Of a stretch of 64,000 nucleotides of DNA, positions 6,356-12,132 are shown piece by piece. The notes under the pieces were generated by a model. It made no database searches. It saw only the letters and a list, made by a program, of their open reading frames with translations, and had not been told where the DNA came from. Source of the stretch: Armatimonadota bacterium (lineage in GTDB: Bacteria; Armatimonadota; Fimbriimonadia; Fimbriimonadales; Fimbriimonadaceae). The translations under genes were made by a program, and so were the position numbers. The first letter of the stretch is position 1, and every line of letters starts with the position of its first letter. The stretch spans positions 1 through 64,000 of the forward strand of contig JANYCU010000016.1 of NCBI GenBank assembly GCA_025360125.1, in the 5' to 3' direction.

Positions 6356-6817
6356 TCAATTCTCAAACTGGTGAATGTTCTTTTTCACATATGATCCCGC
6401 AACCACAAACAGCGCCCCCATAGCCGCCGCGCCAAGAAACACTGGCACCATATAGATCAAGAACCCCACTCCAAGAGCCATAACCGGGAATCCGGTCGTT
6501 GGCTTGTCCGCTGCTGCAACGCTCGCAAGCACAACGCCGATCACCAGGTATGTCGCGATGACCATTACCGAAAGTATGATCAGCCAGCCATGCCAAAGTA
6601 GCAGATGCGCGCAGAAATAGACTCCGCTCGAAAAGACGCTCCGATGCCGAGCCGCGGCATATTGAGGCGGCGAAGGAGCTTGCCCCGCTCGTATCTGGCC
6701 CGCAACGATCGCCGGACTAATCCCCGCCTGAAATTGCGCCAGAAGCCAAGCCTGATCCACGAAAGAAATATTCCCGCCCGCATTCGCAATCAACTGCTGC
6801 CAATCGGTGAAGGTCAT
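6356..6817 (-). CDS. Small multi-pass membrane protein, unknown function
   Basis: The 153-residue product has a soluble N-terminal stretch (about 1-60) with DWQQLIANAGG and FQAGISP, then three hydrophobic segments: HLLLWHGWLIILSVMVIATY, a Val/Ala-rich helix and GFLIYMVPVFLGAAAMGALF. It ends VKKNIHQFEN. I do not recognise the family. ATG at 6817 is preferred because a TACAAT hexamer ends 6 bases before it (see the promoter entry). The gene stands alone between two stretches of REP-like repeats. Confidence 0.65.
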   Translation of the reverse strand: MTFTDWQQLIANAGGNISFVDQAWLLAQFQAGISPAIVAGQIRAGQAPSPPQYAAARHRSVFSSGVYFCAHLLLWHGWLIILSVMVIATYLVIGVVLASVAAADKPTTGFPVMALGVGFLIYMVPVFLGAAAMGALFVVAGSYVKKNIHQFEN

Positions 6818-7230
6818 AGCCAAATTGTATCAGACTTGATTTCCGGCTGCTTGGGAACTTCCGCCTTCGTCAAAGTACATCGGCGGACAGGTCGTTCCTC
6901 TCCTCCAAAGGCGTCCTTCCCGAATAATTCTTCCTGTTTCTTCCCTTGGTGGGTCGGCGTCCCGCCGTCCATCTTGGTTCGCGACGCGAACCCTGGGATT
7001 GAAGGAGCAAAGCTCCCAAAAGCCTGCAAGCACTTTGGCCTGGAGGAAGAGTTCCGAAGCAACCAGGAGCCTTCTACTTGTCAGCCGAAGCGCTTGCGCC
7101 AAAGAGGCACAAACTTAAAGCCTGGTGCCCTGACTTTTCAATTGACTTGTCCAACCAAGTTAACAAGGAAGTTGAATCCGCTGGGCAGTGGGTGGCTCAT
7201 TAAATTGCAAACTTTTCACAGTGCGGTGGC
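6818..7230. repeat. Non-coding region with REP-like repeat copy
   Basis: No gene is supported. Positions 6925-7005 repeat about 75 bases of the block at 6185-6255, including the CGGCGTCCCGCCG hairpin and a GTTCGCGACGCGAAC hairpin. The remainder (7006-7230) shows nothing recognisable. Confidence 0.6.
6824..6829 (-). promoter_or_regulatory. -10 box of a probable leaderless promoter
   Basis: TACAAT on the minus strand ends 6 bases before the ATG at 6817, leaving no room for a ribosome-binding site. Confidence 0.5.
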
Positions 7231-7689: not shown

Positions 7690-7720
7690 ATTAAGCACTC
7701 CGGATCGGAAATATGCCGGA

Positions 7721-7816
7721 CGAGTCACGCTGTGAGCGGGGATAAATTGCTGTGGCCTGCGTACCCGACAATCTGCGGAGCTGAGAGGATACGCAGGAAG
7801 AATCGCTTAAGGCATC
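7721..7816 (+). repeat. Repeat B, copy 1 (contains left REP of the RAYT element)
   Basis: These 96 bases are about 95% identical to 8662-8756. An 8-bp stem CCTGCGTA/TACGCAGG encloses the unit. The part at 7773-7801 (CTGCGGAGCTGAGAGGATAC and onward) recurs inverted at 8381-8408, on the other side of the transposase gene. Confidence 0.85.
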
Positions 7817-7839
7817 AATCTGCGAGGTAAAACTCCCCC

Positions 7840-8373
7840 ATGCTGAGAGAGGGGAAGCCGAATTTCAATAAGCGAAAGTCGTTCAACACGTTTTGGCACT
7901 CCCACTACCTCACCTTTTCAACTCATCATCGTCGAAAATATCTTCTCGACGACCGAATCTGTGAAGTCTTGGCCGAGCGCATCAACGAGGCGTCGAAGGA
8001 GCTCAACTTTGCGGTTTTAGCCTACGTTTTCATGCCCGATCATGTTCATTTGCTCATTCATCCCATGAATGAGTTTTATGACATCGCGGCCATCCTTAGC
8101 GCGATCAAAAAAGGGCCTTCGAAGCGGGCGAAGAACCAGAAGTGGATATCGACGGCGCTTTGGGAACGCGGCGGAGGATATGATTCGAACATCTTTAGTC
8201 CGAAGCCGCGCCAAGACTGCATCGCCTATATCCTGCAAAACCCGGTTCGGAAAGGGTTGGTTGAATCGTCGTTGGAATTTCGATGGTCGAGTGCGAATTG
8301 GACTGTAACCGGAGCCGAGGGTGATATTCGGTGTAACCATTTTTGGACGCTTGAACACGGTAAAGCGTTGTAG
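7840..8373 (+). CDS. REP-associated tyrosine transposase (RAYT, Y1 HUH family)
   Basis: A 177-residue single-strand DNA nuclease of the IS200-like Y1 class, which mobilises REP palindromes. The HUH motif is intact (YVFMPDHVHLLIHP, His68 and His70), as is the catalytic tyrosine (Tyr130 in CIAYILQNPVRKGL). The start at 7840 gives the usual N-terminal strand YLTFSTHHRRKYLL. The gene lies between inverted REP copies at 7773-7801 and 8381-8408, the standard arrangement for RAYTs, so these are its likely substrates. With both catalytic motifs intact it may be active. A derived, dead relative is at 54021-54482. Confidence 0.92.
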   Translation: MLREGKPNFNKRKSFNTFWHSHYLTFSTHHRRKYLLDDRICEVLAERINEASKELNFAVLAYVFMPDHVHLLIHPMNEFYDIAAILSAIKKGPSKRAKNQKWISTALWERGGGYDSNIFSPKPRQDCIAYILQNPVRKGLVESSLEFRWSSANWTVTGAEGDIRCNHFWTLEHGKAL

Positions 8374-8380
8374 GAGGGCT

Positions 8381-8408
8381 TTTCCTGCTTATCCTCGCAG
8401 CTTCGCAG
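8381..8408 (-). repeat. REP, inverted copy downstream of RAYT
   Basis: Read on the minus strand this is CTGCGAAGCTGCGAGGATAA then GCAGGAAA. It matches 7773-7801 and 8713-8741 with few mismatches and closes the RAYT element as the opposite-orientation copy. Confidence 0.8.
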
Positions 8409-8411
8409 GTG

Positions 8412-8507
8412 GTCGGCGAGCCACTGGGTGGGCTAGATTGTTTTGATTCATGTCTTCACCGGGTGGCACGGTCAGCGACCGCTGCAATGCTGAGAGTTGT
8501 CCGTGTT
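8412..8507 (+). repeat. Repeat C, copy 1
   Basis: About 96 bases, over 90% identical to 8758-8854. It contains the small hairpin GGTCAGCGACC. It is non-coding and follows the RAYT element directly. Confidence 0.85.
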
Positions 8508-8535
8508 TCCTTCTCCCCGGCTCCTAAACTTTCCC

Positions 8536-8659
8536 CTTTCTCCCATTTTCATGAAACAAGAGATAGTAGACATACGTCTATTATAGTAGACCTAAAAATT
8601 CGATGGGATGGGAAACAATCAACGGTCGACGTTACTTCTACGAGACCACATACGTTGAC
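8536..8659 (+). repeat. Repeat A, copy 1 (promoter/operator plus gene start)
   Basis: These 124 bases match 9129-9252 with only a few substitutions at a constant offset of 593. The repeat carries the operator-like palindrome and the first codons of the small gene that is complete at 9196. Confidence 0.9.
8564..8591. promoter_or_regulatory. Operator-like palindrome, copy 1
   Basis: Two AGTAGAC units exactly 20 bases apart flank a GTCTA in the opposite orientation, giving TAGAC-4-GTCTA and GTCTA-6-TAGAC inverted repeats. A TATTAT/TATAGT -10-like sequence lies inside. The layout suits a dimeric repressor covering a promoter; BlaI/MecI-type regulators bind comparable GTAGAC-like palindromes, but the actual regulator is unknown. 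Confidence 0.55.
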
Positions 8660-8664
8660 GACGA
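8603..8664 (+). pseudogene. Truncated 5' copy of the 9196-9501 gene
   Basis: The first 18 or so codons (MGWETINGRRYFYETTYVD) match the start of the intact gene at 9196, with the same upstream region. The frame then runs into repeat B at 8662, and everything after that is unrelated repeat sequence. This is a broken duplicate, not a working gene. Confidence 0.75.
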
Positions 8665-8756
8665 GTCACGTTGTGAGCGGGATAAACTGCTGTGGCCTGC
8701 GTACCCGACAATCTGCGAAGCTGCGAGGATACGCAGGAAGAATCGCTTAAGGCATC
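8662..8756 (+). repeat. Repeat B, copy 2 (contains a third REP)
   Basis: A 95-base near-identical copy of 7721-7816, with REP sequence at 8713-8741. It abuts repeat A copy 1 and repeat C copy 2, so the fragments are joined differently from the first set. Confidence 0.85.
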
Positions 8757-8757
8757 C

Positions 8758-8854
8758 GTCGGCGAGCCACTGGGTGGGCTGGGTTGTTTTGATTCATGTC
8801 TTCAACCGGGTGGCACGGTCAGCGACCGCTGCGAAGCTGAGAGTTGCCCGTGTT
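8758..8854 (+). repeat. Repeat C, copy 2
   Basis: A 97-base copy of 8412-8507 lying directly after repeat B copy 2. Confidence 0.85.
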
Positions 8855-8887
8855 TTTTTCCATGGGCGAACATGCCAATTTCTGCAA

Positions 8888-8893
8888 TACAAT
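8888..8893 (+). promoter_or_regulatory. -10 box of the DUF433 gene
   Basis: TACAAT ends 6 bases before the ATG at 8900, the same leaderless spacing seen elsewhere in the window. Confidence 0.5.
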
Positions 8894-8899
8894 TAAGTG

Positions 8900-9109
8900 A
8901 TGACCATGGATCAAACAGTATGGCAATGTGCGGATCGAATGAGTGGCCTTGTTTGCTTCATGGGCACTCGAATTCCGATCTCGACCCTATTTGACCATGT
9001 CCGGGCCAATGAACTGAGCGACTTCTTTGTCAATTTTCCCGATGTTTCGCAGGAAATGGCAGAAGTCGTGTTAGAATCTACTCCCCAGAATTCATCGCAC
9101 TGGCCTTAG
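8900..9109 (+). CDS. DUF433 family small protein (antitoxin-like)
   Basis: A 69-residue protein matching the DUF433 pattern: residues from CADRMSGLVCFMGTRIPIST (compare GxPvirGTRipv) through LFDHVRANELSDFFVNFPDVS and QEMAEVVLES. The family has a winged-helix-like DNA-binding fold and often pairs with PIN-like DUF5615 toxins as an antitoxin. No such toxin gene follows; the next 86 bases lead into repeat A. The ATG at 8900 is favoured over a GTG one codon earlier because of the TACAAT spacing. It may be an orphan antitoxin or a captured regulator inside the repeat array. Confidence 0.72.
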   Translation: MTMDQTVWQCADRMSGLVCFMGTRIPISTLFDHVRANELSDFFVNFPDVSQEMAEVVLESTPQNSSHWP

Positions 9110-9128: not shown

Positions 9129-9252
9129 CTTTCTCCCATTTCCATGAAACAAGAGCTAGTAGACATACGTCTATTATAGTAAACCTAAAAAATCGATGGG
9201 ATGGGAAACAATCAACGGTCGACATTACTTCTACGAGACCACATACATTGAC
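9129..9252 (+). repeat. Repeat A, copy 2 (intact gene)
   Basis: The second copy of the 124-base unit. It contains the operator-like palindrome at 9157-9184, with one mismatch (AGTAAAC) in the distal half-site, and the start of the intact gene at 9196. Confidence 0.9.
9157..9184. promoter_or_regulatory. Operator-like palindrome, copy 2
   Basis: Same arrangement as 8564-8591, covering the probable -10 (TATTAT or TATAGT) 15-18 bases before the ATG at 9196. Confidence 0.55.
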
Positions 9253-9501
9253 TGCGAACGAGTTCGCCACTGCCGGGGCCAAGGCAAACAAGCCGAAGAC
9301 GCCGCCGCGCGCGTTCACCAAGAGAAGCAAGAGCGAACCACCGACCTCGCCCGAGTGCGCGCGCTCCAAATTTACGACCAACGCGTCGACCACATGGTCG
9401 CCACCTTCGCTTCCATCGTCCGCCAATCCCTCCAGCAAACCCTCAATCCCGCTGGCTACTACTACCTCCGAGGTCAATGGAGGAAAAGAAGATCGAAATA
9501 G
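9196..9501 (+). CDS. Small protein of unknown function, first gene of operator-linked pair
   Basis: A 101-residue basic, mostly helical protein. The N-terminus MGWETINGRHYFYETTYID is a short aromatic-rich motif. The middle (about 25-70) is Gln/Glu/Arg-rich and likely coiled coil, and the end is RGQWRKRRSK. I recall small proteins starting GW-x-x-x-NGRRYYY next to a 200-residue partner in Planctomycetes and Chloroflexi genomes, none with a known function; this is memory, not a search. The intact promoter/operator, the truncated duplicate at 8603 and the downstream partner support a real gene. The function is unknown. Confidence 0.6.
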   Translation: MGWETINGRHYFYETTYIDCERVRHCRGQGKQAEDAAARVHQEKQERTTDLARVRALQIYDQRVDHMVATFASIVRQSLQQTLNPAGYYYLRGQWRKRRSK

Positions 9502-9513
9502 TCAAAAATGATT

Positions 9514-9584
9514 CCCCTTCCCCTTTTCGCTCCAAATGGCATCAAGCACCGGATCAAAAGTTGACGGAGCTAAAGGGGGAAGGG
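9514..9584. repeat. Long imperfect hairpin between the paired genes
   Basis: CCCCTTCCCCTTT (9514-9526) and GCTCC (9529-9533) pair with GGAGC (9566-9570) and AAAGGGGGAAGGG (9572-9584) around a loop of about 32 bases. No T-run follows, so a simple intrinsic terminator is unlikely. An RNA structure limiting read-through, or an element end, is possible. Confidence 0.5.
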
Positions 9585-9828
9585 CAAGGGATGGGGGTCA
9601 ATTGAAATGAACCAGCAAAAGTCCAAATCCTTGCCACCAAGCCTTGCATCAAAGAAAAACTTATGTCAACGAAAGCACCAGAAAGATATCTCTTTTAGCT
9701 AAGAGAGATAGGTGAACCATATCCATCAAAAGGAATCGAAAAAGAATGGTGAACCTTGAGAGTTGGCAAAGCAGCAAACCGAAAAAAGTCCAATCTTCCG
9801 CGGACCAAAGGAGGCAATCCAATCCAAT

Positions 9829-10398
9829 ATGACCAATCAAACCCAACAAATTGAACTGAACACCCAACATCTAAACCTCACCCAATCCGAACCTATGTCA
9901 CCCGCCCGGGCCGAAGAACTCGGCGCCGACATTCGGCGCATCGCCCTCGAGGCTCTGCGCGGAATCACCCGGCCAAACCAGGAACCGTGCGTCGCAATCG
10001 CGTGCAACATCGACCAAACCATCGCCGAAGTCGAATCCAAAGTCCATGCCATGCGCCAAGAATTCCAATACGAAGACGCCAACCCATTCGACAAACTCGT
10101 CATCGAACAACTCCTCCTCGCCTGGGTGCAATGGTACGTCGCCGGATGGCTATTAGAAGGGGAACTCTCTCGGGACCGAACCTGGCGCGAAAACCACTAC
10201 TTCACCAAACGCTACCATCAATGCCAATTCCGACTCTCCAAAGCCATCGACCAATTAGCCCGAATCCGCCAAATCAGCGGCTCCTATCTCATCCTCGAAA
10301 CCAGAGCCGAAAAAGAAGCCAAAGCGGAACGAAGACGTCAAGAACAAGCTAAATGGGACACCAGCATGCCATCAACAAAACGCCGAGGCCGAGCTTGA
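9829..10398 (+). CDS. Conserved protein of unknown function, second gene of operator-linked pair
   Basis: A 189-residue soluble, highly helical protein. The central part, NPFDKLVIEQLLLAWVQW, then HYFTKRYHQCQFRLSKAIDQL and ARIRQI, resembles a recurrent uncharacterised family whose members read ERLLVERVxxCWLQ...YYxRRxDRAHRRYLxALKxLAxVRxL, which I recall mainly from Planctomycetes and Chloroflexi. The C-terminus is basic (KAERRRQEQAKW...TKRRGRA). A full AAGGAGG (9808-9814) stands 14 bases before the ATG at 9829, and no nearer start codon exists. It lies downstream of the small gene and ends where another repeat block begins. Nucleic-acid binding is a guess from charge only. Confidence 0.65.
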   Translation: MTNQTQQIELNTQHLNLTQSEPMSPARAEELGADIRRIALEALRGITRPNQEPCVAIACNIDQTIAEVESKVHAMRQEFQYEDANPFDKLVIEQLLLAWVQWYVAGWLLEGELSRDRTWRENHYFTKRYHQCQFRLSKAIDQLARIRQISGSYLILETRAEKEAKAERRRQEQAKWDTSMPSTKRRGRA

Positions 10399-11259
10399 AT
10401 CCTAACTCCTCTCTTCTCTTCGCCCTAGCGAAGCTAGCCCATTCGCCCTTGATGTCTCAGCATCATCCCGAGAGCCTTTGGCGAATCGGGACGCGCAGCC
10501 AGCCCCTCCGAAATTTAGGAAGCTTTTTTTTCACGGCCGTTCAAAATGCAAAAACTGGCGAAATCTGGGTGCTCCCAAGTGCCACCCAGACAAACTCTCC
10601 ACCGAAGCAGGGGGAGAGCCCTTGTCAAAAAGTGCCGCAAAGGCACGTTTTTCTGAGGTGGCGAGCGAAATCACTCAAAAAGTAAGTGAAAACGCGTGAT
10701 GAGCTTGACGAGGGGGATGATTCAGGACCTTAAATTCAACGAAGCAGGCTTCGAAGGCCAAAGCGATTGCAGGCAATCGCACTCCCAAGGATCGCTTCGC
10801 GATCAAGAACAGGCCCCTGGGAACTTCGTTCCTCTGCCTATCCTCCGACTTCCCATCCAGCATCAATTAACCATGACCAATTTCCATTTCATTTTAGAAC
10901 GATTAATATGTATCAGCCTTCCTGGGGCCCAACGGGCGGAAATACCTCTGCCCAGTCTGGAGCTCCGCCTTGCGGAGCAAAGGACTGGGTTAGATGATCG
11001 AAACTGTCCAAGTCCCAGGAGCAACGCGACCCGGCGATTATCGCCGCTTCTCCAAACTCGCCTATGTCGTCTCGGCGATATCCCGAAAGGCTCACCGCAT
11101 CGGGACGCCCCTCGCCCCTCCACCAACAAATTCCGAAACCTCGCGAAAGCCCTGAACTTTCGATCACGACCAGCCAATGATAAGGGCAGGGGCTCCCGTC
11201 GAACACCAATGTTCTGGTGCGTCACGAGATCCTTTGAACTTGGAAACTGGGTAGGAAAT
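10399..11259. repeat. Non-coding block rich in hairpins and dispersed repeats
   Basis: No gene is supported in these 861 bases. Two units of a 'TCCCGA(g/a)AG(c/g)CT...GC(g)AATCGGGACG' type occur at about 10462-10500 and 11064-11110. Perfect or near-perfect hairpins follow one another: GCGATTG-4-CAATCGC (10763-10780), GATCGC-TTC-GCGATC (10790-10804), GGAAC-TTC-GTTCC (about 10819-10831), and a compound hairpin CCCAGTC/GCTCCGC...GCGGAGC/GACTGGG (10951-10989). These resemble the blocks at 5.7-7.0 kb. The HDOD gene begins at its right end. Confidence 0.65.
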
Positions 11260-12132
11260 ATGGTCATCGATGCAGAAGCTTTAGTTATACGAAAACGACT
11301 CGAACAGTCGCTCAAAGAACTCCCACCGCTGCCAACTGCAGTCGCGAAGGTACTCGATGAAACCAATCGTCAGGATCCCGACATGCACAAGATTGACGAG
11401 ATCGTCTCCGGTGACCAAGCCCTTGCATCCAAAGTTTTACGGATCGTGAACTCTGCCTATTACGGCCTCTCCCGACAAGTGACCAGCGTCCACCAGGCTG
11501 TCCTCATACTGGGCATCCAACAAATTCGAACCATCACCCTCAGCGTCGGCTCCATTTCTGCCTTCAATTCACGTGGCCCGGTCGATACCGAAGGAATGAG
11601 ACGATTTTGGCAGCACTCGTTCGCCACTGCCGCAACCTGCACCGCGCTTTGCTCCAAACTCAACGTCGACCGAAAGACGGCAGACGAAGCTTCTACGATC
11701 GGAATTCTCCACGACGTCGGACGAATGTTCTTCTACTGCAACTTTAAAGCGAACTATCAGAAGCTCGTGTCGAAAGCACTATCTGATGGCACTACCTACG
11801 AACAAGAAGAATACGCATTCCTAGGCGATACTCACGCCGGAATCGGTGCAATCGTTGCCGATAAATGGGAGCTACCCGAAAAAATCGTTGATGGAATTCG
11901 ACTTCACGAAGGACCATTCGAAGGCGAAATCGCACTTCCTGCTGCAATTTTGGCCGTCGCGGACTGGCTCAACAAGGGCTATTACTATGAAGGCAAAGGA
12001 CCAATTGATCCGATCGCTCCAGAACTCCTTGAGGCTTTAGGCTTATCCGAAGAAGCGATCCAAGAAATTGGCGAGAAGATACGGAATAAGGTTGACGAAG
12101 CCAGCCAAATTTACGGAATGTTAGCGGCTTAG
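11260..12132 (+). CDS. HDOD domain signalling protein
   Basis: A 290-residue cytoplasmic protein made of one HDOD domain. Hallmarks are the N-terminal LKELPPLPTAVAKVLDETN, DQALASKVLRIVNSAYYGL, VSSVHQAV-type LILGIQQIRTI and the HD-like TIGILHDVGRMF; the second half contains HAGIGAIVADKWELPEKIVDGIRLHE. HDOD proteins are regulatory relatives of HD phosphodiesterases, often tied to motility and signalling. AGGA lies 5 bases before the ATG at 11260, so a much longer upstream reading, which would translate repeats, was rejected. fliD follows 14 bases later, so a link to flagella is likely. Confidence 0.88.
   Translation: MVIDAEALVIRKRLEQSLKELPPLPTAVAKVLDETNRQDPDMHKIDEIVSGDQALASKVLRIVNSAYYGLSRQVTSVHQAVLILGIQQIRTITLSVGSISAFNSRGPVDTEGMRRFWQHSFATAATCTALCSKLNVDRKTADEASTIGILHDVGRMFFYCNFKANYQKLVSKALSDGTTYEQEEYAFLGDTHAGIGAIVADKWELPEKIVDGIRLHEGPFEGEIALPAAILAVADWLNKGYYYEGKGPIDPIAPELLEALGLSEEAIQEIGEKIRNKVDEASQIYGMLAA

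Follow-up and report, generated by a model that had tools for sequence, protein, structure and literature searches.

Two small genes of an Armatimonadota genome (4.13 Mb, 98.6% complete) lie side by side behind a perfect palindrome, and the locus raises the question of which regulator would recognize this palindrome and what kind of protein the genes encode. The window analyzed here is a stretch of 64,000 nucleotides, positions 1 to 64,000 of contig JANYCU010000016.1. A first-pass annotation had described both open reading frames, the palindrome and a second copy of the promoter region at 8536-8664, and had proposed a many-copy cassette, mobile or stress-inducible, with an operator of its own. 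All of the described elements are present in the window.

Layout of the gene pair

7840-8373, plus strand: RAYT-type Y1 transposase gene, a neighbor outside the pair (PF01797, E 1.7e-10)
8536-8664, plus strand: shortened duplicate of the operator region and ~20 codons (129 nt, 94% identity to 9129-9257)
8665-8890, no strand: dispersed REP-like repeat DNA that ends the duplicate (46 matches in the genome)
9160-9173, no strand: predicted LexA (SOS) operator, palindrome TAGAC-ATAC-GTCTA, from comparative genomics
9196-9501, plus strand: N part, ORF for a 101-aa protein with the pattern GW..NGR.Y.Y, beginning MGWETINGRHYFYET
9502-9828, no strand: spacer between the N and C ORFs (327 nt)
9829-10398, plus strand: C part, ORF for a 189-aa helical-bundle protein

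The spacer holds a 22-nt inverted repeat (9512-9533/9566-9587) and pieces of the dispersed repeat, and a search within it for a sense-strand terminator found none. In the nearest relative, G097, the N and C ORFs overlap and a spacer of this type is absent. Compared with G097, dN/dS was ~0.75 for the N part and 0.52 for the C part, and the second codon position was the most conserved in both genes; both look to be under purifying selection in this comparison.

The duplicate stops ~20 codons into the N ORF and runs into REP-like DNA, direct copies of which lie at 7719-7826 and 8412-8513. Because it is surrounded by REP-like repeats next to a RAYT gene, the duplicate is a local rearrangement, and we rejected it as proof of a mobile cassette. 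The neighbors of the pair are the RAYT gene, a DUF433-like ORF and an unrelated ORF at 10696-12132 (HDOD-like by eye), with no integrase, recombinase or primase among them. The proposal of a mobile cassette at this site was not borne out, since the window copy has no recombinase and no other mobile machinery of its own.

Two further observations concern the surroundings. REP-like repeats span 7719-8860, with the RAYT gene at 7840-8373, and the DUF433-like ORF is short (8897-9109; PF04255, 7.9e-6) and lies directly upstream of the pair. A paralogous family whose members start with MxFxxWxxLI was seen at 6356-6823 (minus strand), L022 1613-2290 and L063 2097-2765; its members lie near the pair, directly after the family copy on C6 and, on C10, adjacent to a weak SOS-like box.

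The palindrome as a candidate LexA operator

The palindrome, TAGACATACGTCTA, begins 36 nt before the N start codon, overlaps a -10-like TATTAT (9172-9177) and occurs again at 8567-8580 in the duplicate. The palindrome exceeds chance expectation. Exact matches to TAGAC-N4-GTCTA number seven in the 4.13 Mb of the genome, against two for the reversed control: two in the window, one each on C37, C5 and C41, and two on C56 (81460 and 366282). The site at C56:366282 lies directly before recA, and four of the seven lie at divergent family copies or at the shortened duplicate. At all seven N starts of this genome, the duplicate included, the box lies 21-36 nt upstream and has 0 to 2 mismatches, within an element close to TAGACnTACGTCTA that is followed by a TATAAT-like sequence; the copies compared have N parts 25-36% identical to that of the window copy.

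Sites with one mismatch precede genes for a Y-family (IMS) polymerase (PF00817, 1.9e-30), recQ and DinB-family genes. The survey of the regulon in this genome was purely a pattern search. Across the genome, one-mismatch sites showed no enrichment over the control (53 against 103). Taken singly, such a site is therefore weak evidence, and it carries weight only in promoter position of a known SOS gene. Across phyla the SOS core consists of lexA, recA, dinB and umuDC; by 2021, 17 LexA motifs had been reported (PMC8565304). In the LexA papers that we searched, we found neither the TAGAC-N4-GTCTA motif nor a LexA operator for Armatimonadota.

The genome encodes LexA (C39:188087, E 5.7e-22) and RecA (C56, E 1.2e-131). 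The exact box stands before recA in three genomes of the same genus, G084, G096 and G097, while several other recA promoters of the genus have degenerate boxes or none. In all 17 lexA promoters examined, from this genome and 16 relatives of its bacterial family, GTAGAC and GTCTAC flank the -10 region. There the half-sites are 18-19 nt apart, as opposed to 4 nt in the palindrome, and the N4-spaced form itself is absent from all 17. The lexA promoter of an order-level relative, G173, lacks this half-site arrangement. Near the N gene, the box lies no more than 60 nt from the start in four of six relatives of the same bacterial family, and another copy, G131_C352, has a one-mismatch box farther upstream. 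Outside the bacterial family none of 33 copies has the box with fewer than four mismatches.

The palindrome also precedes recA and other repair genes, and its half-sites lie in the lexA promoters; it is therefore most simply, and best, read as this clade's LexA operator. SOS control of the pair is strongly supported by these promoter patterns, and in this lineage the pair is probably turned on by DNA damage. The earlier guess of a stress-inducible module fits this reading, as the palindrome matches an SOS operator. If so, LexA would bind at 9160-9173 over the -10 region and repress the pair, and DNA damage would switch it on.

The same box could instead be an operator specific to the cassette, bound by the N protein itself in an autoregulated selfish unit. 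The box is found at every copy in this genome and was kept in the shortened duplicate, and distant copies carry a family-specific leader (described below) that could serve as a self-operator. However, the box precedes recA in G084, a genome without any family member, half-sites occur in the lexA promoters of genomes that lack the family, and the box is missing from the copies outside the bacterial family. In these sequences the recA boxes largely refute a self-bound operator, and we give that reading very little credence.

In a separate observation, genes for DNA methyltransferases or restriction-modification enzymes (MmeI-like, type II MTase and HsdM-like, by eye) adjoin SOS-like boxes or family copies at G000:C41:66373, C22:198879, C56:81460 and the C28 copy (L025).

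A two-part protein family

This genome contains six N-domain copies in addition to the duplicate remnant, and five C-domain copies. Three paralogs carry both domains in one ORF (C6, 436 aa; C28, 304 aa; C56, 323 aa), so the window pair is a split form of one protein; on C37 the N and C parts are adjacent, and the C19 copy at 67.9 kb is an N part alone. No integrase or primase gene adjoins any of the copies of this genome that we inspected.

When species genomes were scanned, 30 loci came up, two of them running into the edge of a contig; they belong to Armatimonadetes, Chloroflexi, Planctomycetes, Actinobacteria (Rubrobacter, Coriobacteriaceae and Actinomycetospora) and Acidobacteria (one partial). 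The scan thereby confirmed the first-pass statement of an uncharacterized family present in Planctomycetes and Chloroflexi. Of 28 assessable loci from several phyla, 26 have the two parts side by side or joined in one gene, with 11 distinct fused genes, and it is well supported that they are the halves of one unit. The check that had been suggested came out in favor of a linked partner; the palindrome was absent from the 33 copies examined outside this bacterial family. A few C parts lack a full N part, and one of them (G264) is joined to a different, zinc-motif-like N-terminus.

The distribution within the phylum is patchy. Among 291 genomes the N part was found in 14, the C part in 16 and both in 11, and in the same genus 3 of ~21 genomes have the family. 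The claim of many copies per genome holds for this genome (six copies and a remnant) and for G131 (four), but not in general, as most carriers have one or two copies and most genomes of the phylum none.

Neither protein matched a family above cut-off in Pfam, PHROGs, NCBIfam or PADLOC. Searches with tblastn against plasmids and phages returned nothing for the N part, and for the C part one plasmid match and no phage match. A scan of viral contigs for the family found nothing.

Two small adjacent genes that overlap in G097, in a family that is patchy and multi-copy, might suggest a toxin-antitoxin pair induced by the SOS response. Against this, 11 distinct genes encode the halves as a single protein, the model of a fused member is confident (see below), a lone N part exists on C19, and there is no match to a toxin or antitoxin family in the four libraries named above. 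A toxin-antitoxin function is accordingly very improbable.

Distant copies and their mobile-element context

In ten loci that we picked because their upstream genes are large, the distant copies are preceded by AAA_25 helicases and DnaB-like, D5_N/DUF5906 or Prim-Pol proteins. Phage (tyrosine) integrases or large serine recombinases lie downstream of several distant copies, and the Singulisphaera acidiphila plasmid pSINAC02 has a P4-type primase gene ahead of a fused member. A mobile-element ancestry of the family is likely.

Most distant copies, from several phyla, share a leader, AAGCGGSGCA-N11-GTAACACAA, just before the N start. With at most four mismatches and within 90 nt of the start, it was found at 22 of 33 starts, a set that includes G096 and G105, as against 0 of 894 control windows, where the lowest score was 5 (one window). 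Several further starts match the leader if its last base is allowed to fall on the start codon. G096 has an SOS box together with a partial leader (GTAGCACAA) and on this sequence looks like an intermediate between the two arrangements. The loci with the leader before the N gene are L122-L150, L076, L078, L081 and the Singulisphaera locus L199. Rfam returned only tRNAs and no known RNA family for the motif. We also considered the leader as an attachment site, which was not supported, as it is usually single and stands before the N gene.

The distant copies also bear on whether the pair is a host-beneficial effector of the SOS response, for example a damage checkpoint or a repair accessory, with only an incidental link to mobile DNA. 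All copies of this genome have an SOS box, there are signs of purifying selection, and the copies lie outside recognizable mobile elements, with two of them adjoining restriction-modification genes. Yet most genomes of the genus do without the family, the N parts within this genome are only 25-36% identical to that of the window copy, remnants exist, and several distant members reside in mobile elements. On balance we regard a host effector as unlikely.

Structure models

An AlphaFold2 model of a fused member (L137; pLDDT 87, pTM 0.81) comprises an N part with a short beta region, a 55-residue helix and a basic hairpin, and a C part that forms a helical bundle with a terminal hairpin. In the fused C6 paralog the N part (residues 1-100) was modeled with a pLDDT of at least 90 as a three-stranded sheet, a long helix and a hairpin, and for the window N part a three-stranded sheet, a 55-residue helix and a hairpin are predicted. 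The packing of a three-stranded sheet against a helix is reminiscent of the arm-binding domains of integrases. The N part may bind DNA, and the structural searches gave no match to set beside this suggestion: Foldseek against PDB and BFVD returned nothing at E 0.001, and a profile search of PDB sequences found nothing. The matches from VIA-align were all generic helical bundles (CorA, allergens and designed proteins, Z up to 8.7), which we did not read as a relationship. The fold searches used queries other than the N-terminal sheet by itself.

A proposed mobile-element protein under SOS control

Our best guess is that the family is an accessory protein for DNA transactions of mobile elements, here placed under SOS control. 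The window pair would be a split two-part protein gene, repressed by LexA and induced by damage, a reading to which we assign a probability of roughly 0.7 on the sequence evidence. The computations directly showed which operator this is (from comparative genomics), that the two parts pair and fuse, that the family is patchy and that distant copies have a mobile context; the protein's role may lie in element replication or excision. The family would have come from integrative or plasmid-like elements and been acquired patchily, and in this genome its copies would have multiplied, repeatedly decayed and come under SOS control. A more specific version, which we put forward tentatively and at somewhat less than even odds, is that in one Armatimonadota lineage a LexA operator of a type not reported before took the place of the leader of a widespread, uncharacterized two-part DNA-transaction protein of integrative elements, and that a multiplied mobile-element gene thereby joined the SOS response.

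This arrangement resembles SOS regulons with lineage-specific LexA operators (PMC8565304) in that a promoter palindrome is common to recA and a Y-family polymerase and half-sites occur at lexA; unlike in those reported regulons, the regulated two-part family is uncharacterized. It also resembles SPbeta (PMC8270828) and ICEBs1 (PMC11841131), where element-borne genes are coupled to host DNA damage, whereas the copies here come without the rest of an element and match no named family in sequence. For a phylum in which our paper searches turned up no LexA motif, the proposed operator gives a candidate SOS site and predicts damage-responsive genes. It would also link an orphan multi-phylum family, which none of the curated libraries searched picked up, to both the DNA-damage response and mobile elements, which makes its function approachable.

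The closest parallel on a plasmid is the hypothetical protein SINAC_RS37445 of pSINAC02 (WP_154673957.1), a fusion of N and C parts that matches both profiles. In contrast to the window pair, it lies on a planctomycete plasmid, has the leader motif in a variant form and lacks the TAGAC-N4-GTCTA box. An alphaproteobacterial plasmid family encoded beside HGGxSTG proteins (e.g. WP_259986499.1) shares a conserved C-terminal strand-like motif, and at the Armatimonadetes locus L125 an HGGxSTG protein likewise follows the C part. Homology of the C part to this family was not established, the profile comparison being weak (probability 4, E 0.01). C-part-like uncharacterized proteins followed by HGGxSTG proteins were seen on plasmids of Sulfitobacter, Microvirga and Methylobacterium (L200, L201 and L203). 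Finally, at L199 7653-7704 the annotated GTG start of SINAC_RS37445 omits the conserved N-terminus MGWKIRRNGRRYYY, and judging from this conservation the gene start is probably misannotated, too far downstream.
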